Origin: Thermococcus henrietii
GTDB lineage: Archaea; Methanobacteriota_B; Thermococci; Thermococcales; Thermococcaceae
Direction: 5' to 3'
NCBI RefSeq assembly: GCF_900198835.1
Contig: NZ_LT900021.1
Coordinates: 124,001-188,000, forward strand
DNA length: 64,000 nucleotides
Part shown: piece after piece, positions 24,548-37,374 of the stretch
Numbering within the stretch: the first letter of the stretch is position 1
Layout: every line of letters starts with the position of its first letter
The notes under the pieces: model-generated
What the model was told of the DNA's origin: nothing
Seen by the model: the letters and a program-made list of their open reading frames with translations, nothing else
Database searches by the model: none
Made by a program: the position numbers and the translations under genes

Positions 24548-24630
24548 CTTGCACCACCGACGGGAATAGTTCGGTGAACTTAAAAACCTTTGTCCCAAAA
24601 AGGGTAAGATTGGTCAGAATTGTGCAATAT

Positions 24631-25536
24631 TCACTCGGCGTACTTCAACAGTATCTCCTTCAGCTCGAGGGCTTTTATGTAAGTTGGAGACTCCGGATTC
24701 CCGAGTATGGCCTCAATTTCCGGGTCGTACTCTTCCACGAGCTCATCGTACGGGATTATCGTTTTTGTCGTGAAATCGTTGAATCCAAGCTCGTCGAGTA
24801 TCCTCTCGACCTTCTCAATCTGACTTTCCTTCTTTACTTTGTTTATCACGAGGTGGACATACTTAATGCCGAGCTGTCTCGCGAGCTTTGCGGCATCAAC
24901 CGCCACCTGAACGGAGTTGTAAGTTGGCTCTGTGAGAACAACGGCCTGCTTGAAGCCCTTGGCCAAAGCCCTTCCAAAGTGTTCAAGACCCGCCTGAGTA
25001 TCCATGAGAATTATCTCACCTTTCCTCAGGTTGATGTACTTAACAACCGCATCAAGGAGAGCGTTTTCAGGACAGAGACAGCCGGCGGCGGCCTGAACAA
25101 CGCTTCCCATGACGAGGAGCATGACTCCATCGGGCCCAACAACACCGAACCTATCAACCACGTCCCGTACATCTGGGGTCAACGAGAAGTACAGCCCCCA
25201 GTTAGTTCCGGGTCGCGCCCCAGTTTTTTCCTCGATGTAGTCAAGGTTCTTGTTGAGAGGAACTATTTCATCCCTGATTTCCTTGGGAACACCGAGTGCG
25301 TGTGCAAGGTTCATCTGAGGGTCCTCATCAACTGCTAAAACGCGATAGCCGTCGCGTGCGAGTAGTCTTGCGAGAAGGGCGGTCATAGTTGTTTTACCCA
25401 CACCCCCCTTGCCGGTGATTACAACTCTGAACCCCTCTTCCGGGGCCTGCTTTTTGGTTCGTTCTCGCAACTCTTCAGCTATCTGAAATAGCTTTTTTCG
25501 TCTTTCGTCTTCAACCGATTTGAGGGGCTTTCCCAT
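24631..25536 (-). CDS. cooC: CODH nickel-insertion accessory ATPase CooC
   Basis: 301-aa MinD/ParA-type ATPase. Deviant Walker A TGKGGVGKTTMTALLA near 40-55, switch motif LAVDEDPQMNLAHALG near 68, the CxC metal-binding motif AAGCLCPENALL near 150 that CooC uses for nickel and dimerisation, and ILMDTQAGLEHFGR near 175. CooC inserts Ni into the C-cluster of CODH. ATG 25536 has GGTGTTGC upstream; the TATA box GCATTTATACG (minus, ~25577-25567) gives a leader of ~10 nt. Divergent from cooF-cooS. A long upstream in-frame extension (to 25635) lies in the promoter region and is rejected. Confidence 0.92.
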   Translation of the reverse strand: MGKPLKSVEDERRKKLFQIAEELRERTKKQAPEEGFRVVITGKGGVGKTTMTALLARLLARDGYRVLAVDEDPQMNLAHALGVPKEIRDEIVPLNKNLDYIEEKTGARPGTNWGLYFSLTPDVRDVVDRFGVVGPDGVMLLVMGSVVQAAAGCLCPENALLDAVVKYINLRKGEIILMDTQAGLEHFGRALAKGFKQAVVLTEPTYNSVQVAVDAAKLARQLGIKYVHLVINKVKKESQIEKVERILDELGFNDFTTKTIIPYDELVEEYDPEIEAILGNPESPTYIKALELKEILLKYAE

Positions 25537-25635
25537 AAGCAACACCAAAAAATTTGAAAAACCCAACGTATAAATGCTTTTAGGTTCGAATTTAAAACTA
25601 TTAGAATGGGCAGAATTGTGGACTGTGGGGAACAT

Positions 25636-25872
25636 AATTGGATAATATTGTATCTAATTGTTCATACGAACATTTCTGTTCAAAGGCGCATAACTAAAAG
25701 TTTCAAACCTTAGGATAACTTATCCGTATGACTATTCAGTCATAAGAACCAAATCTCATTACACAAAGATATGGAACTAAAGTGTAACAATTTGAATTAC
25801 AAATTCACGGTTTTAAGTTGAAATGGAAACCCATTTATATACAAATTTGTTACATAAGCTTCGGTGATTCCT
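25636..25872 (+). promoter_or_regulatory. cooC/cooF intergenic control region with stacked palindromes
   Basis: AT-rich region between divergent cooC and cooF. Inverted repeats in order: TGTTC-N4-GAACA (25669-25672 centre area, ~25660-25675), GGATAA-C-TTATCC (25713-25725), TATGACT-ATTC-AGTCATA (25727-25744), AATTTG-AATTA-CAAATT (25789-25806) and ACAAATTTGT (25841-25850). The cooF TATA (TTTATATA, 25834-25841) directly abuts the last one, whose downstream half lies before the expected start near 25863. Their density suggests several operator sites; no regulator of the CorQ/CorR type is encoded in this window. Confidence 0.55.
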
Positions 25873-26478
25873 ATGCCACCTGATTCAAAGCCTACAATTT
25901 TCATAAACCCAGCAAAGTGCATAGGCTGCCGGCACTGTGAAATAGCATGTGCAGTGGAGCACTCACAGAGCAAGGACCTGTTCTCAGCGATATTCGAGAA
26001 TCCGCTACCGAAGCCGAGGATACACGTTCTCCCCATGGGAGCATACAACGTTCCCATGAACTGCCGGCACTGTGAAAACGCACCCTGTATGGAGGTCTGC
26101 CCGACCGGGGCGATTTTCAAGGACGAAGATGGCGCCGTTCTCGTCGATGTGGACAAGTGCATCGGTTGCAAGATGTGCGCAATAGTCTGTCCCTTTGGTA
26201 TCCCAGAGTTCGACGCCCTCACCGGCGTGATGTTCAAGTGCGACATGTGCCCGGACAGAAGGGCAGAGGGACGGCTTCCGGCCTGCGTTGAGGCCTGTAA
26301 GACCGGCGCACTTATGTTTGGAACCATAGACGAGGTGGTCTCGCAGGTCAGAAAGGAGACCGCCAAGAAGATAATCAAGCTGAAGGAAGGCGAATACAAG
26401 GAGGAATACAACGGTTGGGACCTGTTTAGGTCTTTTCAGGCCGAGGTTATTCGGATTAATGAGGGGGAGTCAAAATGA
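25873..26478 (+). CDS. cooF: CooF-like polyferredoxin (4 x [4Fe-4S])
   Basis: 201-aa iron-sulfur protein of the DMSO-reductase/hydrogenase electron-transfer subunit family. Four cluster motifs are visible: CIGCRHCEIAC (~residue 14), CRHCENAPCMEVCP (~60), CIGCKMCAIVCP (~93) and CDMCPDRRAEGRLPACVEACK (~125). It would accept electrons from CooS. ATG 25873 follows GGTGATTCC (25863-25871) and the TATA lies ~35 nt upstream. The stop overlaps the cooS start as ATGA, so stoichiometric translation is likely. Confidence 0.92.
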   Translation: MPPDSKPTIFINPAKCIGCRHCEIACAVEHSQSKDLFSAIFENPLPKPRIHVLPMGAYNVPMNCRHCENAPCMEVCPTGAIFKDEDGAVLVDVDKCIGCKMCAIVCPFGIPEFDALTGVMFKCDMCPDRRAEGRLPACVEACKTGALMFGTIDEVVSQVRKETAKKIIKLKEGEYKEEYNGWDLFRSFQAEVIRINEGESK

Positions 26479-28445
26479 AGAAGTATAAGGAAGTATCGAT
26501 AGACCCCACCACCCAGAAGATGTACGAACGCGCCCAAGAACTGGGCATTGAAACCGTCTGGGAGAGGCTCGAGAAACAGCAACCCCAGTGCGGTTACGGT
26601 CTGCTTGGAATCTGCTGTAGGAACTGTATGATGGGACCGTGTAGGATTAATCCCTTCGGCGGAGAGCCCAAGAGAGGCGTCTGCGGTGCCGACGCCGATA
26701 CAATCGTTGCCAGAAACCTCCTTAGAATGATAGCGGCCGGTGCAGCTGCACACAGCGACCACGGGAGGCATGTTGCTTTAACGCTCCTCGTCGCGGCCGA
26801 GATGGCCGAGAAGTTCAAGAAGGAAGGAAAGCCCGTCCTTGAGCTCGACAACATGGCCTCGAACACCCTGCCCTACCAGGTCAGAGACCCCGAGAAGCTC
26901 AAGGCGGTTGCGAAGAGGCTCGGAATCGAAACCGAGGGCAAGAGCATAAGGGAGCTCGCCAAGGAGGTAGCAGAGGTAGCTCTCAGGGACTTCGGAAAGC
27001 AGGACGAGGAACCGTTGGAATTTCTCAAGGCATACCTCAACCCGAAGACCTACGAGATGCTTGAAAAAGCCGCCGAAAAGGCCGGGATGCCGTGGTTTGA
27101 GAAGGGCGTCCTCCCGAGGAGCATAGACAGGGAGATAGTTGAGAGCCTCCACAGGACACACATCGGAACCGACCACGACCCGGTGAGCATACTCCTCCAC
27201 GGACTCAAGACGGCCCTCGGCGACGCCTGGGGTGGCTCGCTCATAGCAACTGAACTCCAGGACGTCCTCTTCGGCACACCGAAGGTCATAAAGGCCGAGG
27301 CCAACCTCGGCGTCCTGAAGGAGGACTACGTCAACATAGTCGTCCACGGCCACGAGCCGGTTCTTTCGGAGAAGATAGTCGAGGCGGCCCAGGACCCCGA
27401 GCTGATAGAGCTCGCCCAGAAGCTTGGAGCCAAGGGCATAAACGTCGTCGGAATGTGCTGTACCGGCCTTGAGGTCCTCATGAGGCACGGAATTCCGATA
27501 GCGGGCAACTTCCTCCAGCAGGAGATGGCCATCGTTACAGGTGCCGTCGAGGCAATGGTCGTTGACGTGCAGTGTATAATGCCCGCAACGGTCGACGTCG
27601 CAAGGTGCTTCCACACCAAGATAATAGACACGAGCCCGATAGCGACTTTCCCAGGGGCAATTCACATCAAGTTCGACGAGAGGAGGGCCGACGAGATAGC
27701 GAAGGAAATCGTTAGAACGGCAGTTGAGAACTTCCCGAACAGGTCGAAGCAGAGGGTTGAGATACCGAAGGAAAAGATGTCGGGCTACGTCGGCTTCAGC
27801 GTCGAGGCCATACTCGAGCACTTTGGAGGCTCCCTCAAGCCCATCGAGGAAGCCATCGTTGAGGGCAAGATAAAGGGCGTCGCCGGCCTCGTCGGCTGTA
27901 ACAACCCGAAGGTGAAGCAGGACCACAACCACATAAAGATAGCCAACGAGCTCATGAAGAGGGACGTCCTCCTCATTGGAACAGGTTGCTGGGCCACCGC
28001 GGCGATGAAGTACGGCATCTTCCTGCCAGAGTACGCAGACACAGAGAACGTCGGGCCCGGCCTGAGGGAGTTCGCCAAGGAGTGGGGCATTCCCCCGGCG
28101 CTCAACATGGGCTCGTGCGTTGACTGTACGAGAATGCTCGTCCTGGCCGACCTCATAGCGAGGGACCTCAATGTGCCCATCTCGGCACTGCCGGTCGTTG
28201 GTTCGGCACCTGAGGCAATGACCGAGAAGGCGGTCTCAATAGGAACCTACTTCGTCGCCAGCGGAATAACAACTCACCTTGGCGTCGTTCCGCCGGTTCT
28301 CGGCGGGCCCAAGGTCGTGAAGATTCTTACGCAGGACCTCTACGACATCGTTGGAGCGGCCTTCATAGTGGAGCCAGACCCGTACAAGGCGGCAAAGCTG
28401 ATGTACGAGCACATCATGAAGAAGAGGAAAGAGCTTGGAATTTGA
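26475..28445 (+). CDS. cooS: Ni-containing carbon monoxide dehydrogenase catalytic subunit
   Basis: 656-aa monofunctional Ni-Fe CODH, CO + H2O to CO2 + 2H+ + 2e-. D- and B-cluster cysteines fall at C39, C47, C48, C51, C56 and C70, the same positions as in Carboxydothermus CODH-II. The C-cluster set is complete by motif: VHGHEP (His), GMCCTGLE (Cys), VDVQCIMP (Cys), VGCNNP (Cys), GTGCWA (Cys), MGSCVDCTR (Cys). Catalytic Lys in TEKAVSIG and the proton-path His near HSDHGRH are present, so the enzyme should be active. The length is typical. It is the second gene of the coo operon. Confidence 0.97.
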   Translation: MKKYKEVSIDPTTQKMYERAQELGIETVWERLEKQQPQCGYGLLGICCRNCMMGPCRINPFGGEPKRGVCGADADTIVARNLLRMIAAGAAAHSDHGRHVALTLLVAAEMAEKFKKEGKPVLELDNMASNTLPYQVRDPEKLKAVAKRLGIETEGKSIRELAKEVAEVALRDFGKQDEEPLEFLKAYLNPKTYEMLEKAAEKAGMPWFEKGVLPRSIDREIVESLHRTHIGTDHDPVSILLHGLKTALGDAWGGSLIATELQDVLFGTPKVIKAEANLGVLKEDYVNIVVHGHEPVLSEKIVEAAQDPELIELAQKLGAKGINVVGMCCTGLEVLMRHGIPIAGNFLQQEMAIVTGAVEAMVVDVQCIMPATVDVARCFHTKIIDTSPIATFPGAIHIKFDERRADEIAKEIVRTAVENFPNRSKQRVEIPKEKMSGYVGFSVEAILEHFGGSLKPIEEAIVEGKIKGVAGLVGCNNPKVKQDHNHIKIANELMKRDVLLIGTGCWATAAMKYGIFLPEYADTENVGPGLREFAKEWGIPPALNMGSCVDCTRMLVLADLIARDLNVPISALPVVGSAPEAMTEKAVSIGTYFVASGITTHLGVVPPVLGGPKVVKILTQDLYDIVGAAFIVEPDPYKAAKLMYEHIMKKRKELGI

Positions 28446-28479
28446 TTTCTCATTTCTTCACTCTTTTTGAGGTGATACC

Positions 28480-28887
28480 ATGGGGGAGGAATTCGAGGGG
28501 GTTAAAGCCGACGCCTGCATCGGCTGTGGACTCTGCGCTCAGGTGTGTCCACACAACGCGATATTCGTTATGGATAACGATAAACGGGTCGTTTCCTTCC
28601 ACCCAGAACTCTGTGGGGAGTGCAACTACGAGTGCAACAGTATCTGTCCCACTCAGGCAATCAAAGGGAAGCCCACGAGAATTGACCTTGAATTTGAATA
28701 CGCCCACTGTCAGGTCTGCGGTAAAAAGCTCGACTACACGGTCAAGACCGCGGAGTTTCTTTACCGCAAACTCGGAAAGTTCTACGATTACCCAGAGATT
28801 GTGTTCATGTGCGACAGGTGCAAGCACGAGCGCGTTAAGGAGTTCCCGAGCGAGTACCTGAAGTTCTTCGGGGGGATGCTCAAATGA
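28480..28887 (+). CDS. Small 4Fe-4S ferredoxin-like protein of the CODH operon
   Basis: 135-aa protein with one canonical [4Fe-4S] motif CIGCGLCAQVCPHNAIF at 14-30 and a second Cys set (LCGECNYECNSICPTQAI, 46-64), then two zinc-ribbon-like pairs CQVCG and CDRCK in the C-terminal half. It resembles the N-terminal Fe-S domain that precedes the flavin domain in GltD/NfnB-type proteins, but is encoded separately and overlaps the flavoprotein gene as ATGA. GAGGTGATACC precedes ATG 28480. It probably shuttles electrons between CooF/CooS and the flavoprotein. Confidence 0.8.
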   Translation: MGEEFEGVKADACIGCGLCAQVCPHNAIFVMDNDKRVVSFHPELCGECNYECNSICPTQAIKGKPTRIDLEFEYAHCQVCGKKLDYTVKTAEFLYRKLGKFYDYPEIVFMCDRCKHERVKEFPSEYLKFFGGMLK

Positions 28888-29936
28888 GGGGCATGAAGTT
28901 TTCGTTTCTCTGCAGGAGCAAACCGGAGAAAACCGGCAAACGGGTGGCGATAATCGGGGCCGGCCCCGCGGGATTGACTGCCGCCGGTTACCTCGTCTGT
29001 AAGGGTCATGACGTTGATATCTACGATAAAATGCCGGAACCCGGCGGGCTCATGCTCTTCGTTATCCCGGAGTTCAGGATTCCGGTTGAGAGGGTTCGCC
29101 TCGGAGCTAAAGAGCTTGAGGAAGAGTTTGAGGTAACATACTATCCAAAAACGAAGGTCATGGAAGGTGAGAGACAGGACGAGGGCGACGAGTTCTACGA
29201 GAGGGTTGTCAAGCTGAGCGAGCTGAAGGAAAAGTACGACGCGGTGCTCATAGCGACGGGGATATGGAACGTCAGGAGGATAGGAATTCCCGGAGACGAC
29301 CTTGAGGGCATACTCTCGCCTCTCGAGCTCCTCTTCTGGATAAAGGGGCACGAGCTCGGCTACGTTCCAAAGGAGAAGGTTCCCGATTTAAAGGACAAGA
29401 AGGTCGGCATCATAGGAGCCGGTTTGACGGCGGTCGATGTTGCCTTCGAGTGCAACCGCCTCGGAGCCGAGGTTGAGATATTTTACCGCAGGACGATAAG
29501 GGAAGCTCCGGCGGGAGCCTACGAGATAAACATTTTGAGAAACAGGGGAGTTAAATGGTTCGAGCTCGTAACACCGAAGCGCGTTATAGGTGAGAACGGC
29601 AGGGTTAAAGCCATCGAGCTCCTGAGGACGAGGCTCGGTGAACCGGACGAAACCGGAAGGAGGAGACCCATTCCCATTCCCGGCTCCGAGTTTCAGGTCG
29701 AGCTCGACTACCTCGTCTTCGCCATAGGAATGGTTTCAACTCCACCGGTGAACGGGGGTTACATCGCCACTGACAGGAGGGGAAGGATAGTCGTTGACTC
29801 AAGGCACATGACGAGCGCCGAGGGAATCTTCGCGGCCGGCGACGTCGTCAACGGCCCGACGAAAGTCGGCAGGGCCATAAAGGACGGCCTGTACACGGCG
29901 GTTTCAATAGACAAATGGCTCAGGGGGGAGCTCTGA
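28884..29936 (+). CDS. GltD-like FAD/NAD(P)-dependent oxidoreductase of the CODH operon
   Basis: 350-aa flavoprotein like the glutamate-synthase small subunit, NfnB/SudA and related enzymes. FAD Rossmann GAGPAGLTAAGYL near 25-37, NAD(P) Rossmann GAGLTAVDVAFE near 173-184, and C-terminal FAD motif GIFAAGDVVNGPTKVGRAIKDG near 310-331. The usual N-terminal domain with two Fe-S clusters is missing; the preceding 135-aa gene may supply it in trans. It could couple electrons from CO to NAD(P)+, which is inference from operon position. Translationally coupled at both ends (ATGA at start; TGATG with the next gene). Confidence 0.82.
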   Translation: MRGMKFSFLCRSKPEKTGKRVAIIGAGPAGLTAAGYLVCKGHDVDIYDKMPEPGGLMLFVIPEFRIPVERVRLGAKELEEEFEVTYYPKTKVMEGERQDEGDEFYERVVKLSELKEKYDAVLIATGIWNVRRIGIPGDDLEGILSPLELLFWIKGHELGYVPKEKVPDLKDKKVGIIGAGLTAVDVAFECNRLGAEVEIFYRRTIREAPAGAYEINILRNRGVKWFELVTPKRVIGENGRVKAIELLRTRLGEPDETGRRRPIPIPGSEFQVELDYLVFAIGMVSTPPVNGGYIATDRRGRIVVDSRHMTSAEGIFAAGDVVNGPTKVGRAIKDGLYTAVSIDKWLRGEL

Positions 29937-30460
29937 TGGAGCGGAAGTACCTCTACCTCGACTACCTCACCTGCATCGGCTGTGAGACCTGTGAAACCGT
30001 CTGTGCATTCATTCACGATGGCAATCCCAACATCAGGATTTACGTGACCGAGAACAAGCAGTACGTCCCGATAAACTGCAAGCACTGCGACGATGCTCCC
30101 TGTCTCAGGGTCTGCCCCACCCACGCGATATACCGCGACGAGGACGGTGCAGTTAGAATCCACGAGGAGAAGTGCATCGGTTGTCTAGCCTGCCTGCAGG
30201 TCTGCCCCTACGGCGTTCCATTCTACAGCCTCAAGGTGAAGGCGATAACCAAGTGCGATATGTGCGCCGACAGACGCGAGGAGGGACTCGAGCCGGCCTG
30301 CGCCCTTATGTGCCCGGCAGAGGCGATTCAGTACGGCCCGCTTGAGATTGTCCTCGAACTCGTTAAGGAGAGGCGCGCCAAGAACATTCCGGAGCACCAG
30401 CGCGAGCTAAGCGATAAGGAGCTGAAGAGGAGCGTTACTTCCGGCTACTCCGTTCTCTGA
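29936..30460 (+). CDS. Second polyferredoxin of the CODH operon (HycB/CooF-like)
   Basis: 174-aa protein with four cluster motifs: CIGCETCETVC, CKHCDDAPCLRVCP, CIGCLACLQVCP and CDMCADRREEGLEPACALMCP. It is similar to the first gene of the operon, so the operon carries two such carriers. ATG 29936 overlaps the flavoprotein stop (TGATG); GGGGGGAG lies 4-11 nt upstream. A second electron outlet of CODH, perhaps to a hydrogenase or another membrane complex elsewhere in the genome, is plausible. Confidence 0.88.
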   Translation: MERKYLYLDYLTCIGCETCETVCAFIHDGNPNIRIYVTENKQYVPINCKHCDDAPCLRVCPTHAIYRDEDGAVRIHEEKCIGCLACLQVCPYGVPFYSLKVKAITKCDMCADRREEGLEPACALMCPAEAIQYGPLEIVLELVKERRAKNIPEHQRELSDKELKRSVTSGYSVL

Positions 30461-30486
30461 CACCTTTTTGTTTCGGTGGTGTGAAA

Positions 30487-30957
30487 ATGGAAAGGATAGG
30501 GCTGAGTGACGTTATCGGGAACGCAAGGAGAGTAGTCCTGTGGGGAATAGGAAACGAAAAGCGGGGCGACTACGGCTTCGGGGCCTATCTTGCTGAGGCC
30601 CTTATGATAGCCATTAGAAACCCGAACTTCCTCGTCCTCAACTGCAGGGAGGTTCCGGAGAGCCAGGCCGGGGTCACGGTTAGATTTGCCCCTGAGCTTC
30701 TTATCATCGCAGTCCCCCTCGAGCTCGGTGAGGAACCAGGAAAGCTCGTCGTTGCCGAGCCCTGGGAGGCCATTGAAGACATTCCCGAGGAGTTCAGACC
30801 GCAACTTGAGGTCACCCTGAGGCACGTGAGCGAGCTCTTACCTGACACTAAAATATTGCTTCTCGGCTGCCAGCCAGGAAGTGAAAAAACAATAACACCC
30901 AATATTAAAGAGTGCGTTGAAAATCTGGCGCTTGGAATATCAGCTTTGTACCTTTAG
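30487..30957 (+). CDS. HycI-like hydrogenase maturation endopeptidase
   Basis: 156-aa protein of the HycI/HybD family that removes the C-terminal tail of [NiFe]-hydrogenase large subunits. The N-terminal motif VVLWGIGNEKRGDYGFGAYLAE matches the family (GIGNExRGDDGFG, with the usual second Asp changed to Tyr). The nickel-ligand Glu in GNE is present, CREVPE and LGEEPG blocks follow. The His ligand near HV(SE) (LRHVSELLP) is a candidate third ligand. No hydrogenase is encoded in the operon, so its target must be elsewhere or CODH-related. Shares its 3' end with the TBP-like gene (3-nt tail-to-tail overlap). Confidence 0.75.
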   Translation: MERIGLSDVIGNARRVVLWGIGNEKRGDYGFGAYLAEALMIAIRNPNFLVLNCREVPESQAGVTVRFAPELLIIAVPLELGEEPGKLVVAEPWEAIEDIPEEFRPQLEVTLRHVSELLPDTKILLLGCQPGSEKTITPNIKECVENLALGISALYL

Positions 30958-31499
30958 CTGGAGATTAAGCCGTATCGCTCCAAGTCATTTTTTAAGCGGT
31001 CAACTGCTTTTTTGATATCTTCCTCCGTCTTTGCCCCAGAAACGACAATTTTTCCACTGTTGAATATAAGGATAGTCATTGAAGAATCTCTCACCCTGTA
31101 AACAACACCGGGGAATATCTCAGGCTCGTACTCAACGTTTGGAAGGGTTAGTGCGATTTCCTCAAGCTCGACGTTTCCAAGACCTATATCACCCGCGGCC
31201 ACAATGTTCTCAATTTTAATAGATGGACTTCCTTCAAACTTCATTCCCAGAGATTCAAGCATATGCCTGAGATACAGGACTGCGGTTTCTATCGTTTTAA
31301 CGTCTCTGGCTCCGGTGCATACCAAGCGTCCGGAGTAGAATATCAAAAAAGTAACCTCCGGTGATTGCATTCTGTAAGCGGCTCCCGGAAAAGTTCTGGG
31401 GTTATACTTAATTGGAGCGAGATTTTTTACCACGAGGTTCATATCTATGGGGCCATGCAGGTCAATCGATGCCACGATATTCTCAATTTCGAGTGTCAT
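30954..31499 (-). CDS. Divergent TATA-binding protein paralogue
   Basis: 181-aa protein with two direct TBP repeats. Repeat 1 (~3-88) contains IENIVASIDL, the FPG-type Phe (TFPGAAYR) and LIFYSGRLVCTGAR; repeat 2 (~95-178) contains IENIVAAGDIG, FPGVVYR and LIFNSGKIVVSGAK. The four intercalating phenylalanines and both DNA-contacting Asn are kept, so it should bend TATA boxes. It differs strongly from the canonical Thermococcus TBP (for example HGPIDMNLVVKNLAPIKYNP in place of the usual DLCPNSKYNP block) and lacks the acidic C-terminal tail. GGTGG precedes ATG 31499 and it has its own TATA (AAGTTTAAGGT, minus, 31541-31531). It lies between the CODH operon and the por operon. Confidence 0.9.
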   Translation of the reverse strand: MTLEIENIVASIDLHGPIDMNLVVKNLAPIKYNPRTFPGAAYRMQSPEVTFLIFYSGRLVCTGARDVKTIETAVLYLRHMLESLGMKFEGSPSIKIENIVAAGDIGLGNVELEEIALTLPNVEYEPEIFPGVVYRVRDSSMTILIFNSGKIVVSGAKTEEDIKKAVDRLKNDLERYGLISS

Positions 31500-31578
31500 T
31501 TAATCCACCAAGAGTTGACTAAAGAATGAAACCTTAAACTTAACGTTCCGAAATGGAAAAAACAGAAGAAAAGAAGGC

Positions 31579-32574
31579 TCACTCCTCCGGCTTCGGGAGG
31601 GTGACCTCGACGCCGAGGACCTTCCACATGGCCTTTATCTGCTCACGCATAACGTCGATGGCCTCCGGCTGCTTGAAGAGGTGCTTGAACCTGCCCTGAA
31701 GCTTGAGGTACTCCTCGATGGGCTTCTTGAACTCTATGGCAACTACTCTGCCTCCCTCGCGCTTGACCTTCGCGCCTCCTCCGGGGCTCTGTATCTTGAT
31801 GTTGTGGAAGTCGCCGTTCTCAATCTCGAAGAGTGGCCATATTCCTGTCTCGATGGCGAGCCTCGCTATCTCAACTCCCTTCTCGAGCGGGCTCTTCCAG
31901 CCGGTAGGGCAGGTACAGTGCATCTGAATGAAGGCCGGACCATCAACCTTTGCCGCCTTTTTCACCTTTCTAACCAGGTCAAAGGGGTTGCCTATGCTCG
32001 CGGTTGCCACGTAGGGTATCTGGTGGGCTGCAGCTATAAGGGCGACCCATTTCTTGGGCTTGTCCTCACCGATGGAGTACTTGCCGGGCGGTGAGGTGGT
32101 CGTCCAGGCTCCGTAGGGGGTTGAGGAGCTCCTCTGGATTCCGGTGTTCATGTAAGCCTCGTTGTCGTACATGACGTAAACGACGTTGTGACGCCTCTCA
32201 AGCATACCACTGAGGGCCTGCATACCGATGTCCGCGGTTCCTCCATCTCCACCAAATGCAAGAATCTTGCCCTTGAGTCCCTTCTTCTTCCAAGCGGCCT
32301 CAACACCGCTCGCCACTGCCGCGGCGTTCTCAAAAGCCACGTGAACCCACGGGGCCTTCCAGGCGGTGTACGGGAAGACGGCGCTAACAACCTCCATACA
32401 GCCCGTTGCGTGGGCGATGGCGAAGGCATCGGGGTCGCCGTACTTCTCCTCCATGGCCTCGCTAAAGGCCTTGGTAACGAGCTTCATTCCGGTTGCACAG
32501 CCACAGCCAGCACAGGCGGCGTGGCCCGGTGCCCAGTACTCGCGAGTTGTAATCGGGGGCTTCCTAACGGCCAT
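31579..32574 (-). CDS. porB: Pyruvate:ferredoxin oxidoreductase beta subunit
   Basis: 331-aa POR beta (same length as P. furiosus PorB). TPP-binding subunit with [4Fe-4S] cysteines in the N-terminal [14 protein letters not shown] block, the [16 protein letters not shown] Mg-TPP motif near 105-120, and a further Cys at [12 protein letters not shown]. Produces acetyl-CoA, CO2 and reduced ferredoxin from pyruvate together with alpha, gamma and delta chains. ATG 32574 with GAGGTGATGAAG upstream is preferred to an earlier in-frame ATG. Last gene of the POR/VOR run; the following T-rich stretch (CTGTTTTTTCC, minus, ~31558) can terminate. Confidence 0.95.
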
Positions 32575-32584
32575 CTTCATCACC

Positions 32585-33769
32585 TCACAGAATCTCCTTC
32601 CTAAGGCCTATCCAGTTGACCTCGTCAAACTCCTCTCCGTTGAGGGCCTTCTGCGCAATCGCGAGGGCCTCGTCAAGGTCCTTGAAGGTGACGTCCCTGC
32701 CACCGAGTCCGAGGATGAAGTCCACTATGACCGGCTTCTCCTTCTCGTTCACGAGGGTCCTGCTGAAGTCCTGGAAGAGGGCTCCGCCGACGCTGAAGGT
32801 GACGTTCTTCTCAAGGAGAGCGAGAACCTTAGCCTTCTTGGCCAGCTCGCGAACCTCTTCAATCGGGAACGGCCTGTAAACGGTCATCTTCGCGGCTCCG
32901 GCCTTTATGCCCTTCTCGCGGAGGTGGTCGACGTATTCCTTGACGGTTCCGGCGAGTGAACCCATGGTGACGAAGATTATCTCGGCGTCATCTGTGCGGT
33001 ACTCCTCAATCTTCTGGTACTTCCTGCCGAACTTCTTCTCGAACTCCTCGAAGACCTCGTCGATGACCTTCCTCGCGTTCTCGTTGGCCTCCCAGACCTT
33101 GTATCTGGCCTCCATGTAGTGGGCGGGGAAGGCAAGGGTACCCTGGGTTATCGGCCTCTTCGGGTCAAGGTAAGCGTGCTTCGGCTCGTACTCGCCGAGG
33201 AACTCGTCAACGAGCTCCTGGTCAGGTATCTCAACGGGCTCGACGGTGTGGGTGAGGATGAACGCGTCGAAGCCGACCATCGCCGGGAGAAGGACCCTCT
33301 CGTCCTCGGCGACCTTGAAGGCTATCAGGATTAAATCGAGGGCCTCCTGGTTGTTCTCGGCGTAGAACTGGAGCCAGCCGGTGTCGCGCTCGCTTATGCT
33401 GTCCTGCCAGTCGTTCCAGATGTTAATCGGTGCGCTCAGAGAGCGGTTTCCAATGGCCATAACTATCGGAAGGCGCATTCCAGCGGCGATGAAGAGTATC
33501 TCGTGCATCAAAGCGAGACCCTGAGAAGCGGTCGCGGTGAAGGTCCTAACGCCCGCCGCTGAGGCACCGACACAGGCTGAAATGGCCGAGTGCTCGCTCT
33601 CGACCTTGATGAACTCCGCATCGAGCTCGCCGTTGGCGACGAACTCGCTGATTTTCTCCGGAATGAGGGTCGACGGCGTAATCGGGAAGGCCGCTATGAC
33701 CTTCGGCTTGGCAAGCTTCGCGGCCCAGGCGGCCGCCTCGTTGGCTTTCATAACCGTCCTAATCGGCAT
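32585..33769 (-). CDS. porA: Pyruvate:ferredoxin oxidoreductase alpha subunit
   Basis: 394-aa POR alpha, the subunit that forms the active site with beta. Start [43 protein letters not shown] (quoted in part: the FPITPST motif is the family hallmark). Later [44 protein letters not shown] region shows the conserved QGLALMHE. Length equals the P. furiosus protein. Ends 10 nt before porB. Confidence 0.95.
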
Positions 33770-33780
33770 CTTTCACCACC

Positions 33781-34098
33781 TCACTTGGTCTCCCTAACCA
33801 TTATTATCGCGTCGGTCGGGCACTCGTTCGCGCAGATTCCACAACCCTTACAGTAGTCGTAGTCGAAGACCGGGTAGTTCTCCTCGTCGAGGTAGATGGC
33901 CGGCTCCGGGCAGTAGATGTAGCAGAGGTAGCACCTAACGCACTTGTCCCTGTGGAACTCGGGCATGAAGACACGCCAGGAACCGGTCTTGTTGATTACG
34001 CTACTCCCCGGGATGTAGGCAATCGCTCCCGGCGTCATCTTTTCGCTATACTCCTTCTGAACCCTCTCTATGTCGGCCTTAAACGGGCTCTCAGCCAT
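33781..34098 (-). CDS. porD: Pyruvate:ferredoxin oxidoreductase delta subunit
   Basis: 105-aa 2x[4Fe-4S] ferredoxin-like subunit that passes electrons to ferredoxin. Clusters CVRCYLCYIYCPEP and CKGCGICANECPTDAI. Length matches P. furiosus PorD. A TATA box AAGTTTAAGT (minus, 34140-34131) and GGGGTGA before ATG 34098 indicate that porDAB has its own promoter, separate from vor. Confidence 0.95.
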   Translation of the reverse strand: MAESPFKADIERVQKEYSEKMTPGAIAYIPGSSVINKTGSWRVFMPEFHRDKCVRCYLCYIYCPEPAIYLDEENYPVFDYDYCKGCGICANECPTDAIIMVRETK

Positions 34099-34162
34099 TT
34101 ATATCACCCCTGGTGAGTTATCAGAGGGAAACTTAAACTTTGCGTGGACAAATATGAAAGGT

Positions 34163-35098
34163 TCAGCCGAAGACCTCGGCGAGCTTCTTAAGCTTCTCCC
34201 ACTCGCGAAGCACCCAGCTCTGGAGGTTCTCGATGTCCTCCCTGGTCATGTACTTGAACCTGCCCTGGAGCTTGAGGAACTCCTCAATTGGCTTCGGCTC
34301 CTTCTTGGGCGAGGGCATGTTTATCTTGTACTTTCCGTTCTCGTACTCGAAGAGCGGGAAGTATGCGGTCTGAACTGCGAGCCTTGCTATCTCGATGCTC
34401 TTGTCGGTGGGTGAGCGCCAGCCGGTCGGACAGGGAGCAAAGAGCTGGATGAAGCTCGGCCCCTCTATCTTCCTGGCCTTCTTGAGCTTCCTTATGAAGT
34501 CCTCCGGGAAGGCGACGCTTGCCGTGGCCGCGTAGGGAACCTCGTGGGCGATGACGATGTCGATGACTTTCTTCTTGTGTCTCTTCTCAAGGAAGTGCCT
34601 CTTTCCTCCGGGAGTGTTGGTGGTCCAGGCTCCGTAGGGGGTTGAGCTCGAACGCTGAATTCCGGTGTTCATGTAAGCCTCGTTGTCGTACATTATGTAA
34701 ACGGCATCGTGGCCCCTCTCAAGGAAGCCACTCAAAGCCTGAAGGCCTATGTCCGCTGTACCACCGTCGCCGGCCCAGCCGACGACCATAACCCCGTCGT
34801 CGCCCTTGACCTTTATTCCCCTCGCCTTCAAAGCGGCCTCGATACCGCTTATGACAGCGCCGGTGGTCTCGAAGGCGGTGTGGAAGAGGTTAGCGTCAAG
34901 CGCGGTGTAGGGCCAGGGGCCGGCTATGATGGTCGAACAGCACGCGGGGATGACGAAGATGGTCTTCCTGCCGTAGGCCTTGAGGACGTACCTTATTCCG
35001 AGCGAGGCGCCACAGCCCTGGCAGGCCGTGTGGCCGGCAAAGAAGTGCTCCTCAGCTGGGATGCTCAGCCTTTTTCTAACGTTCTCGGGAATCTCCAT
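34163..35098 (-). CDS. vorB: 2-Ketoisovalerate:ferredoxin oxidoreductase beta subunit
   Basis: 311-aa VOR beta (same length as P. furiosus VorB), acting on branched-chain 2-ketoacids from Val, Leu, Ile. Cluster cysteines in HTACQGCGASLG and FIQLFAPCPTGW, TPP motif [18 protein letters not shown]. About 45-50% similar by eye to PorB, the result of an ancient duplication. ATG 35098 follows AGGTGAGAACG and overlaps nothing; vorA ends 6 nt before. The longer ORF start is ignored. Confidence 0.93.
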   Translation of the reverse strand: MEIPENVRKRLSIPAEEHFFAGHTACQGCGASLGIRYVLKAYGRKTIFVIPACCSTIIAGPWPYTALDANLFHTAFETTGAVISGIEAALKARGIKVKGDDGVMVVGWAGDGGTADIGLQALSGFLERGHDAVYIMYDNEAYMNTGIQRSSSTPYGAWTTNTPGGKRHFLEKRHKKKVIDIVIAHEVPYAATASVAFPEDFIRKLKKARKIEGPSFIQLFAPCPTGWRSPTDKSIEIARLAVQTAYFPLFEYENGKYKINMPSPKKEPKPIEEFLKLQGRFKYMTREDIENLQSWVLREWEKLKKLAEVFG

Positions 35099-35103
35099 CG
35101 TTC

Positions 35104-36291
35104 TCACCTCTTGAGGTGGTACCACTCAACCTCTCTATCGAGCTTTCCTGCCTCGATAACCTTCTTCATGTTCTCCGCTATGGCCCTGACGTCCGGAACG
35201 GTGAAGTCCCTGCCGCCGAGTCCGACGATGTAGTTCTTGATTATCGGCCTGGCATCGGTGTTGTAGAGAACGCCCTTGGACTCGTTGAAGAGTATGCCCT
35301 CCTGGCCGAAGGAGTAGTTCCTGTCGAGGACGGCTATGCCCTTGACGCTCTCGGCTATCTCCCTCAGTTCTTCCTTCGGGAACGGCCTGAACCATCTAAC
35401 TTTCGCGTAGCCGACCTTGTAGCCCTCCTTCCTGAGCAGGTCCACCGCTTCCTTGACGGTTCCCATGAGCGAGCCCATACCCATGAAGACGAAGTCCGCA
35501 TCGTCAACGTAGCCCTTCTCAATCATCTCGCTGTAGTCCCTGCCGAAGCGCTCGCCGAACTCCTTACCGACGTCCTTGATGACCTTGACTGCGTCCTCCA
35601 TGGCCCTGGCAATCTTGTACCTGAACTCATAGTAGTCGTTCGGCCCACCGAGGGCTCCGACCGAGAACGGCTGGCTGAAGTCCGCTAAGTCGTAGAGGGG
35701 CTTCCTCGGCGGAAGGAACTCATCAACGAGCTCCTGCGGAATCATCTCGACGACGTCGTAGGTGTGGCTCAGTATGAAGGCGCTCTCCACTATCATCGCG
35801 GGAAGGTTGACCCTCTCGGCCACCTTGAAGGCCATGAGAACGCCGTCGTAGACTTCCTGGTTGTTCTCGGCGTAGAACTGCATCCAGCCGGTGTCCCTCT
35901 GCGCCAGGCTGTCGGTTTGGTCGTCCCAGACGCTCCACGGGGGAGCCATGGCCCTGTTAACGTCGACCATCACAACCGGGAGCCTCGCACCGCTCGCCCA
36001 GTGGAGCATCTCGTGCATTAAAGCGAGACCCTGGGCAGAGGTTGCGGTGAAAGCTCTCGCTCCAGCGGCGGAAGCACCTATACAGGCCGCCATCGCGGAG
36101 TGCTCGCTCTCGACGGGGACGTACTGGATGTCTGCCTCTCCGTTGGCTATGAACTCGGCTATCTTCTCGATGATGCTCGTCTGCGGGGTGATTGGGTAAG
36201 CGGCGACGACCTGAACGCGGGCATGTTTGGCCGCGTAAGCGGCCGCGTAGTTACCGCTCACAACCTTCCTAATCGGCTTGTACTCCGCCAT
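35104..36291 (-). CDS. vorA: 2-Ketoisovalerate:ferredoxin oxidoreductase alpha subunit
   Basis: 395-aa VOR alpha, paralogue of PorA. N-terminal PITPQTSIIEKIAEF and [23 protein letters not shown] motifs as in the family. ATG 36291 has GGAGGAGAAGTGAT upstream, and vorD ends 1 nt before it. Operon continues to vorB. Confidence 0.93.
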   Translation of the reverse strand: MAEYKPIRKVVSGNYAAAYAAKHARVQVVAAYPITPQTSIIEKIAEFIANGEADIQYVPVESEHSAMAACIGASAAGARAFTATSAQGLALMHEMLHWASGARLPVVMVDVNRAMAPPWSVWDDQTDSLAQRDTGWMQFYAENNQEVYDGVLMAFKVAERVNLPAMIVESAFILSHTYDVVEMIPQELVDEFLPPRKPLYDLADFSQPFSVGALGGPNDYYEFRYKIARAMEDAVKVIKDVGKEFGERFGRDYSEMIEKGYVDDADFVFMGMGSLMGTVKEAVDLLRKEGYKVGYAKVRWFRPFPKEELREIAESVKGIAVLDRNYSFGQEGILFNESKGVLYNTDARPIIKNYIVGLGGRDFTVPDVRAIAENMKKVIEAGKLDREVEWYHLKR

Positions 36292-36292
36292 A

Positions 36293-36610
36293 TCACTTCT
36301 CCTCCTTCTCCATCGTTATGGCGTCGGTCGGGCACTCGTTCGCGCAGATTCCACAACCCTTACAGTAGTCGTAGTCTATTCCAACGTAGCCATCCTCGCG
36401 GATGTAGATTGCAGGCTCCGGGCAGAACTTCCAGCAGATGTAGCACTTGACGCACTTGTCGTCGTTCACGACGGGTATGAAGGTCCTCCAGTCACCTGTG
36501 AAGTTGCTGAGGGTCGTTCCAAGGGTTATCGGCGCCTCGGGGTACTGCTCTACTGAGGTGAAGGTGAGCTTCTCAGCCTGGGCTTTCTTTTCTCCAAACA
36601 AGGTGTTCAA
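36293..36610 (-). CDS. vorD: 2-Ketoisovalerate:ferredoxin oxidoreductase delta subunit
   Basis: 105-aa 2x[4Fe-4S] subunit with CVKCYICWKFCPEP and CKGCGICANECPTDAI. The preferred start is TTG 36610, behind GGTGGT, which gives exactly the length of P. furiosus VorD; the open frame reaches GTG 36622 without a better site. It is the paralogue of PorD. Confidence 0.9.
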   Translation of the reverse strand: MNTLFGEKKAQAEKLTFTSVEQYPEAPITLGTTLSNFTGDWRTFIPVVNDDKCVKCYICWKFCPEPAIYIREDGYVGIDYDYCKGCGICANECPTDAITMEKEEK

Positions 36611-36651
36611 CTTTACCACCACCCGCCTCGGTTAAGGAAGGGAAGAGAAGA

Positions 36652-37209
36652 TTAGAGCTCGTAAACGGTGGTCTTGTTGAAGGCCTCTTCGGCGGCTTTG
36701 GCGTTCTTCTCGCCGAGGGTTCCTGAGAAGGTCTCCTTGATGGCCTCCTGGACGTACTTGAGCTCGACAACGCCGGTGGCTTTAGCGACGGCACCGAGGA
36801 TGGCCGTGTTGGTAATCGGAAGGCCGAGTATGTCGAGGGCGATGGTGGTGGCGTCGACGAGTGCCAGCTTGGCCGGCTTCTTCTTGAGCTTCTCAAGGAC
36901 CTCCTCCTTGCTCTTCTCGGTGTTGACGATAACGATTCCGCCCTCCTTAAGGCCGGCAGTGACGTCGACGGTGTCGAGAAGGCTCGGGTCGAGGACGACG
37001 ACGATGTCCGGCTCGTAAATCTGGGTCTTAATCCTTATCGGCTTGTCGTCAATTCTGGTGAAGGCAGTAACCGGCGCTCCACGCCTCTCAACACCGAAGA
37101 AGGGGAACGCTTGGACGTACTTTCCCTGCTTGAAGGCAGCAGAGGCTAAGATGTTGGCGGCCGTAACGGCACCCTGTCCACCCCTACCGTGAAAACGTAT
37201 CTCAATCAT
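36652..37209 (-). CDS. porG: Shared POR/VOR gamma subunit
   Basis: 185-aa gamma subunit used by both pyruvate and 2-ketoisovalerate ferredoxin oxidoreductases in Thermococcales. N-terminal [21 protein letters not shown] motif near 5-25 (CoA/gamma-domain hallmark). ATG 37209 has GGAGGCAGGGAAG upstream; an in-frame GTG at 37236 is ignored. A TATA-like CCTAAATAAACC (minus, ~37268-37257) precedes it, so porG-vorDAB form one transcript. Confidence 0.93.
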
Positions 37210-37374
37210 CTTCCCTGCCTCCTGTGGGTTTTTCACCTTCAGTTAGTCCGAAAGGTTTATTTAGGTTTCGGTATCGTGTTAAGGAACCCTAAACGGGATT
37301 TTCTGGGTAAGGGTGAACTTTGAATTCCTCCGATGGTTTTTTCCGCTCATCGATTCTCGAAAACTTTTTGAGTA

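Follow-up and report, generated by a model that had tools for sequence, protein, structure and literature searches.

What a Thermococcus genome gains from a second, divergent TATA-binding protein (TBP), and whether that protein has anything to do with the CODH operon that its gene faces, are the questions raised by a locus of Thermococcus henrietii located within an analysed stretch of 64,000 nucleotides (the window, in whose numbering the positions of Table 1 are given). A sequence-only reading of this DNA had described a protein of 181 aa, here TBP2, with both TBP repeats, four intercalating Phe and two DNA-contacting Asn, and this description is borne out: the ORF is exact, the residues are present, and both repeats are matched, in two stretches, by the Pfam TBP family (PF00352; E 2.6e-51; 171.8 bits against a cut-off of 22.9). 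The AlphaFold model has a predicted saddle fold (pLDDT 94.3), the best fold matches of which are the Pyrococcus woesei TBP structures 1PCZ/1AIS (TM about 0.92-0.93); the identity of TBP2 as a TBP is near certain. Similarly to the P. woesei protein (1PCZ/1AIS/1D3U), to which it is about 50% identical, TBP2 combines this fold and its two repeats with the four Phe, the two Asn and the TFB stirrup Glu. It is not the only TBP of the genome, which consists of one contig of 2,155,760 bp (99.96% complete) and encodes exactly two full TBPs, namely TBP2 and, as had been supposed, a canonical TBP1 of 190 aa (C1:1844822-1845400, minus strand), the two being about 52% identical. The absence of an acidic tail, put forward as a further distinction, holds for the T. 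henrietii copy and some others, but in several orthologues the C-terminus is EEDDEW or EEEEW. An extra TFB gene, a possible partner for TBP2, was looked for in the T. henrietii genome and none was found, and positions 30900-31650 gave no match to a known RNA family.

Table 1. Features of the TBP2 locus, with positions counted from the first nucleotide of the window.
Feature	Position	Strand	Basis or remark
TBP2 gene, 181-aa divergent TATA-binding protein, both repeats	30954..31499	-	ORF; Pfam TBP; AlphaFold; orthologues
Ribosome-binding motif GGTGG of TBP2	31505..31509	-	GGTG kept in orthologues (alignment)
TBP2-family promoter element CGTTAAGTTTAAGGT (family consensus CCGTTAAAGTTAAGGT)	31531..31545	-	31 nt before ATG
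T-rich tract CCTTCTTTTCTTCTGTTTTTTCC between por and TBP2	31555..31577	-	Sequence
por/vor operon, upstream of TBP2, same strand	31579..37236	-	Context
CODH operon (CooF, CooS, ferredoxins, FAD oxidoreductase, maturation-protease-like), convergent with TBP2	25864..30957	+	Context
Canonical BRE/TATA box of the CODH operon, GAAACCCATTTATATA	25826..25841	+	Promoter comparison

The distribution of TBP2 was surveyed in 94 Thermococcaceae genomes, 61 of them Thermococcus. The gene is present in 14 of these 61, including T. henrietii, and the 13 other orthologues are 63-68% identical to the T. henrietii protein; in the sister genera, genome G089 has one more distant copy, and G003, from another genus, has a fragment located where a contig ends. 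TBP1 is also present in 13 of the 14 TBP2 genomes, the exception being G061, which is only 73% complete. In the phylogenetic tree, the TBP2 sequences (15 rows) form one clade (100/98), sister to a clade (99/98) that holds all sampled Thermococcaceae TBP1s, so that TBP2 belongs neither to the canonical Thermococcales TBP1 clade nor, being encoded elsewhere, to its locus. Other archaea fall outside both clades; the tree included Methanosarcinales TBPs and left out those of haloarchaea. TBP2 is under purifying selection, since its omega lies between 0.03 and 0.17, and it has diverged more quickly than TBP1 (78% versus 92% mean identity in the same genomes). Moreover, its horizontal spread is directly visible when three genomes are compared: G000 and G062 carry near-identical TBP1 (dS 0.17) and TBP2 proteins that are only 65% identical, and between G062, a metagenome-assembled genome in which a binning error is possible, and G019 the dS is 0.26 for TBP2 but 0.90 for TBP1. 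The simplest reading of these data is that TBP2 originated by a duplication that took place before the sampled Thermococcaceae diversified, or by acquisition from a close relative outside the sample, and that losses and horizontal transfers came afterwards. A viral or plasmid origin was also considered and rejected, as no relative was found on viral contigs and the only matches were to plasmids of haloarchaea (identity no higher than about 44% in the matches listed) and to haloviruses (about 29%).

The surface of TBP2 combines strict conservation with changes confined to the family or nearly so. Its contact positions, given in yeast numbering, follow the contacts of the yeast TBP structure. 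The four intercalating Phe (99, 116, 190 and 207) and the two minor-groove Asn (69 and 159) are invariant in all 14 TBP2 proteins, as are E186 and E188, the acidic stirrup residues of the second repeat that contact TFB. The substitution V203T is likewise invariant in TBP2, Thr being found at this position in one of 33 other archaeal TBPs; P200S is typical of TBP2, with Pro in 33/33 of the others, and K110G occurs in 12/14, with Lys or Arg in 32/33. E/Q98 has become mostly Val or Ile, and Q189I and A112T are further changes shared by all or most of the family; the acidic stirrup residues 97/98 are both lost, and the first-repeat stirrup and other surfaces are altered. V203T presumably belongs to the triple substitution of the yeast TBP mutant with altered specificity. 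It has been reported that TBP recognises TGTAAA when three residues of its second repeat are replaced (PMC10005294); the literature search did not find a paper that names V203T individually. The DNA-side changes of TBP2 fit a shifted box preference, without proving such a shift.

The region upstream of the gene is also peculiar. The expectation that TBP2 would have its own promoter was correct in that a distinct element precedes the gene, but this is not a canonical Thermococcus promoter. The element, CCGTTAA(A/G)(G/T)TTAAGGT (CCGTTAAAGTTAAGGT), is almost invariant upstream of all 14 Thermococcus TBP2 genes, at 29-31 nt from the ATG, with the variants CGTTAAG/ATTTAAGGT in G000 and G064, and related versions accompany the TBP2 of G003 and G089. 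Thirteen of its columns do not vary at all, and information averages 1.84 bits per column within the element, as compared with 0.33 in the flank that precedes it and 0.67 in the flank that follows. The genes upstream of TBP2 differ between genomes (por, ABC-2 permease, CDF or a divergent gene), and therefore this conservation is not due to a shared context. The possibility that the element is coding sequence was discarded, given that its frames differ relative to TBP2 and that in many copies its TAA reads as a stop codon in frame. When scored with a canonical BRE/TATA matrix, which was built on the upstream regions of 179 genes and has a consensus similar to GAAANNTTTATAWA, 15/15 TBP2 promoters do not exceed the 25th percentile, and TBP1 promoters lie between the 40th and the 84th. 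TBP2 genes thus have no canonical BRE/TATA box and the element sits in its place, the unusual trait of these promoters being that their conserved core is not a TATA box. As a control, the boxes of TBP1 were found to be likewise well conserved among orthologues, and for that reason conservation of the element is not by itself a proof of self-binding by TBP2. Further upstream, the T-rich tract is, by its sequence, probably the terminator of the por operon.

A search for the element together with its spacing and an ATG returned TBP2 as the sole match in the T. henrietii genome, no second gene with the full combination being found, and 15 genomes lacking TBP2 gave scattered matches only, the full element being absent. 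The idea of a general regulon motif was dismissed, as the near matches examined in TBP2-containing genomes lie overwhelmingly within coding sequence, and no second target was found to recur across genomes. Two intergenic look-alikes, each unique to its genome, were seen: in G050, a macrodomain-like gene (L224, G050:C22:1011-1057, minus strand) follows GTTAAAGTTAAGG with TBP2-like spacing and a GGTGGTGG motif, and in G041 the one-mismatch element TTCCGTAAAGTTTAAGGTT (L185:1501-1515) lies 60 nt before a KaiC-like ATPase gene. Either may be a second target in a single genome, or a chance occurrence.

Regarding the chromosomal surroundings, the MRP-por intergenic region (window positions 24600-31580, L154-L166) is a recurrent Thermococcus insertion site, occupied in many genomes by the CODH operon and in others by TBP2, by both or by other genes. 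In G054 the gene of the CODH catalytic subunit looks broken, being split into two overlapping pieces in different frames with an internal TGA (G054:C31:421-2389).

It was suggested by the sequence-only reading that TBP2 might allow a choice of promoters at the CODH and/or por operons. The arrangement behind this suggestion is real, since TBP2 is tail-to-tail with the CODH operon and the ORFs of TBP2 and the last CODH gene overlap by 4 bp; a tail-to-tail position beside a CODH cluster is found in 4/14 TBP2 genomes and involves two CODH types, TBP2 adjoining the T. henrietii-type CODH in three (G000, G019 and G062) and facing, in G032, the Mrp end of a second, different CODH-hydrogenase-Mrp cluster. 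The proposed targets are nevertheless most improbable. The CODH promoter is canonical, the por promoter matches the canonical matrix, and both look alike in genomes with and without TBP2. CODH is present in 8/14 TBP2 genomes versus 13/47 others, a weak association (Fisher p = 0.057, 61 genomes), and each gene is commonly found without the other, no CODH being detected in six TBP2 genomes and no TBP2 in 13 CODH genomes. The insertion site is also used separately: at least six relatives have the CODH operon at the same por-side (MRP-por) position with TBP2 absent, G064 has TBP2 between MRP and por without CODH, and G065, whose CooS is 100% identical to that of T. henrietii, carries two unrelated small genes at the position of TBP2. 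When window positions 24631-31545 are compared with L039/L040 (G019/G062), the CODH operon DNA is about 86% identical and the adjoining TBP2 about 70%, which indicates that the two differ in history despite their adjacency. In addition, T. onnurineus already has a dedicated CODH repressor, EnfR (PMC10570040). What is left of the original proposal is a genuine second TBP, coexisting with the canonical one, that is plausible as an alternative specificity factor, without the suggested role at CODH and por. More commonly, TBP2 adjoins a DrrAB-type ABC-2 exporter, which in seven genomes lies immediately upstream on the same strand, with CDF cation efflux, OsmC, NifX-like and flavin-oxidoreductase genes near TBP2 in such contexts. 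An ABC-2 permease orthologue occurs in 11/14 TBP2 genomes versus 12/47 others (Fisher p = 0.001 in a test that ignores phylogeny), in agreement with TBP2 being the expression switch of a co-travelling stress/metal-resistance neighbourhood (DrrAB-type ABC-2, CDF, OsmC, NifX-like); this is however improbable, as the exporter and metal-efflux genes have canonical BRE/TATA boxes and not the TBP2 element, and T. henrietii keeps TBP2 while a search of its genome found the permease orthologue absent.

The best explanation, held with about even confidence, is that TBP2 is an accessory TBP from an old Thermococcaceae paralogue lineage, patchy and horizontally spread, which has a shifted box preference and drives or autoregulates its own gene, and not CODH or por. 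According to this mechanism TBP2 would bind DNA and TFB1/TFB2 as TBP does, with a putative preference for a TATA-like box of the type TTAAAG-TTAAGG; on its own box it would recruit TFB1 or TFB2, one of these ordinary factors being the expected partner given that no extra TFB gene was found, and then RNA polymerase, so as to drive or autoregulate its own promoter, where transcription would be expected to start about 10-16 nt before the ATG. It may also drive a small, condition-dependent set of other, putative promoters, rather than CODH or por. TBP2 probably reads, to judge by residues and element, a slightly different promoter code. A more far-reaching version, which must be regarded as tentative, holds that TBP2 and the ordinary TFBs constitute a separate promoter system, in which TBP2 would recognise CCGTTAAAGTTAAGGT as a core element of its own, read poorly by TBP1, and would act as a self-sustaining switch at its own gene and a portable alternative specificity factor; if true, TBP2 would be an archaeal counterpart of the alternative sigma factor, made from a TBP. 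The unchanged core DNA-contact residues, the lack of other promoters found with the element and the canonical boxes of the usual exporter and metal-efflux neighbours would also be compatible with a largely redundant TBP working on ordinary TATA boxes, for instance under stress, the element then being an operator or activator site for another regulator. Such redundancy is rather unlikely in view of the family-wide changes at otherwise conserved DNA-side positions, of an element that replaces the core promoter with no canonical box (TTTATATA type) nearby, and of its having been found at TBP2 genes only, and not elsewhere in the 15 genomes lacking TBP2. It is very unlikely that TBP2 is a negative factor, competing with TBP1 for TFB or occupying promoters unproductively: in its favour, the TFB-contact Glu is retained alongside an altered first-repeat stirrup and other altered surfaces, but the intercalating and minor-groove residues are all under purifying selection, and a pure decoy would not need them.

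Several TBPs per genome are also known in methanogens, Methanosarcina species having more than one, and the Methanosarcinales TBPs sampled here are placed as an outgroup in the tree, not with TBP2. From the canonical Thermococcales TBP, TBP2 differs as a non-syntenic, patchy sister clade with altered stirrup and DNA-side residues and a gene devoid of a canonical TATA box. In haloarchaea, the presence of several TBPs per genome is known; these are often located on extrachromosomal replicons, and promoter selection has been proposed as their function (PMC2121645). Halobacterium TbpD, together with TfbA, resembles the present case in that a divergent second TBP stands beside a canonical one (PMC2121645); however, haloarchaeal TBPs are only about 40% identical to TBP2 in a protein search, TBP2 is closest to Thermococcales TBP1, and the TFB set is expanded there and not in T. 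henrietii. The TFB-RF1 regulon of Pyrococcus/Thermococcus likewise links an initiation regulator to an ABC-2 multidrug-type exporter and weak core promoter elements, but TFB-RF1 is another kind of regulator, with a palindromic site (TCTGAANTTCAGA) and a bona fide TATA box (PMC5937170), and the TBP2 element is not the TFB-RF1 site.

The open-access literature searched yielded no account of Thermococcales with a second TBP, although the gene itself must be annotated in public genomes. Promoter choice by TBP swapping in archaea is an old question, for which haloarchaea, with their many TBPs and TFBs, have been the main object of study. The Thermococcus case involves just one additional TBP without an additional TFB, one well-defined candidate box and close relatives without the gene, so that promoter choice by TBP can be tested directly, both with purified factors and in a genetically tractable Thermococcus; T. 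kodakarensis, for instance, has been described with a single TBP. A third TBP-like protein of about 175 aa, more divergent, was also noticed in G086 (L049:8782-9306, minus strand) and G030 (L050:8850-9380, minus strand); in its first repeat both intercalating Phe are replaced by Tyr and Thr124 by Pro, and the Phe of the second repeat are kept. Its gene is divergent from that of a 143-aa EVE-domain-like protein and, given the restriction and HerA/NurA/Mre11-type genes nearby, is possibly part of a defence island.
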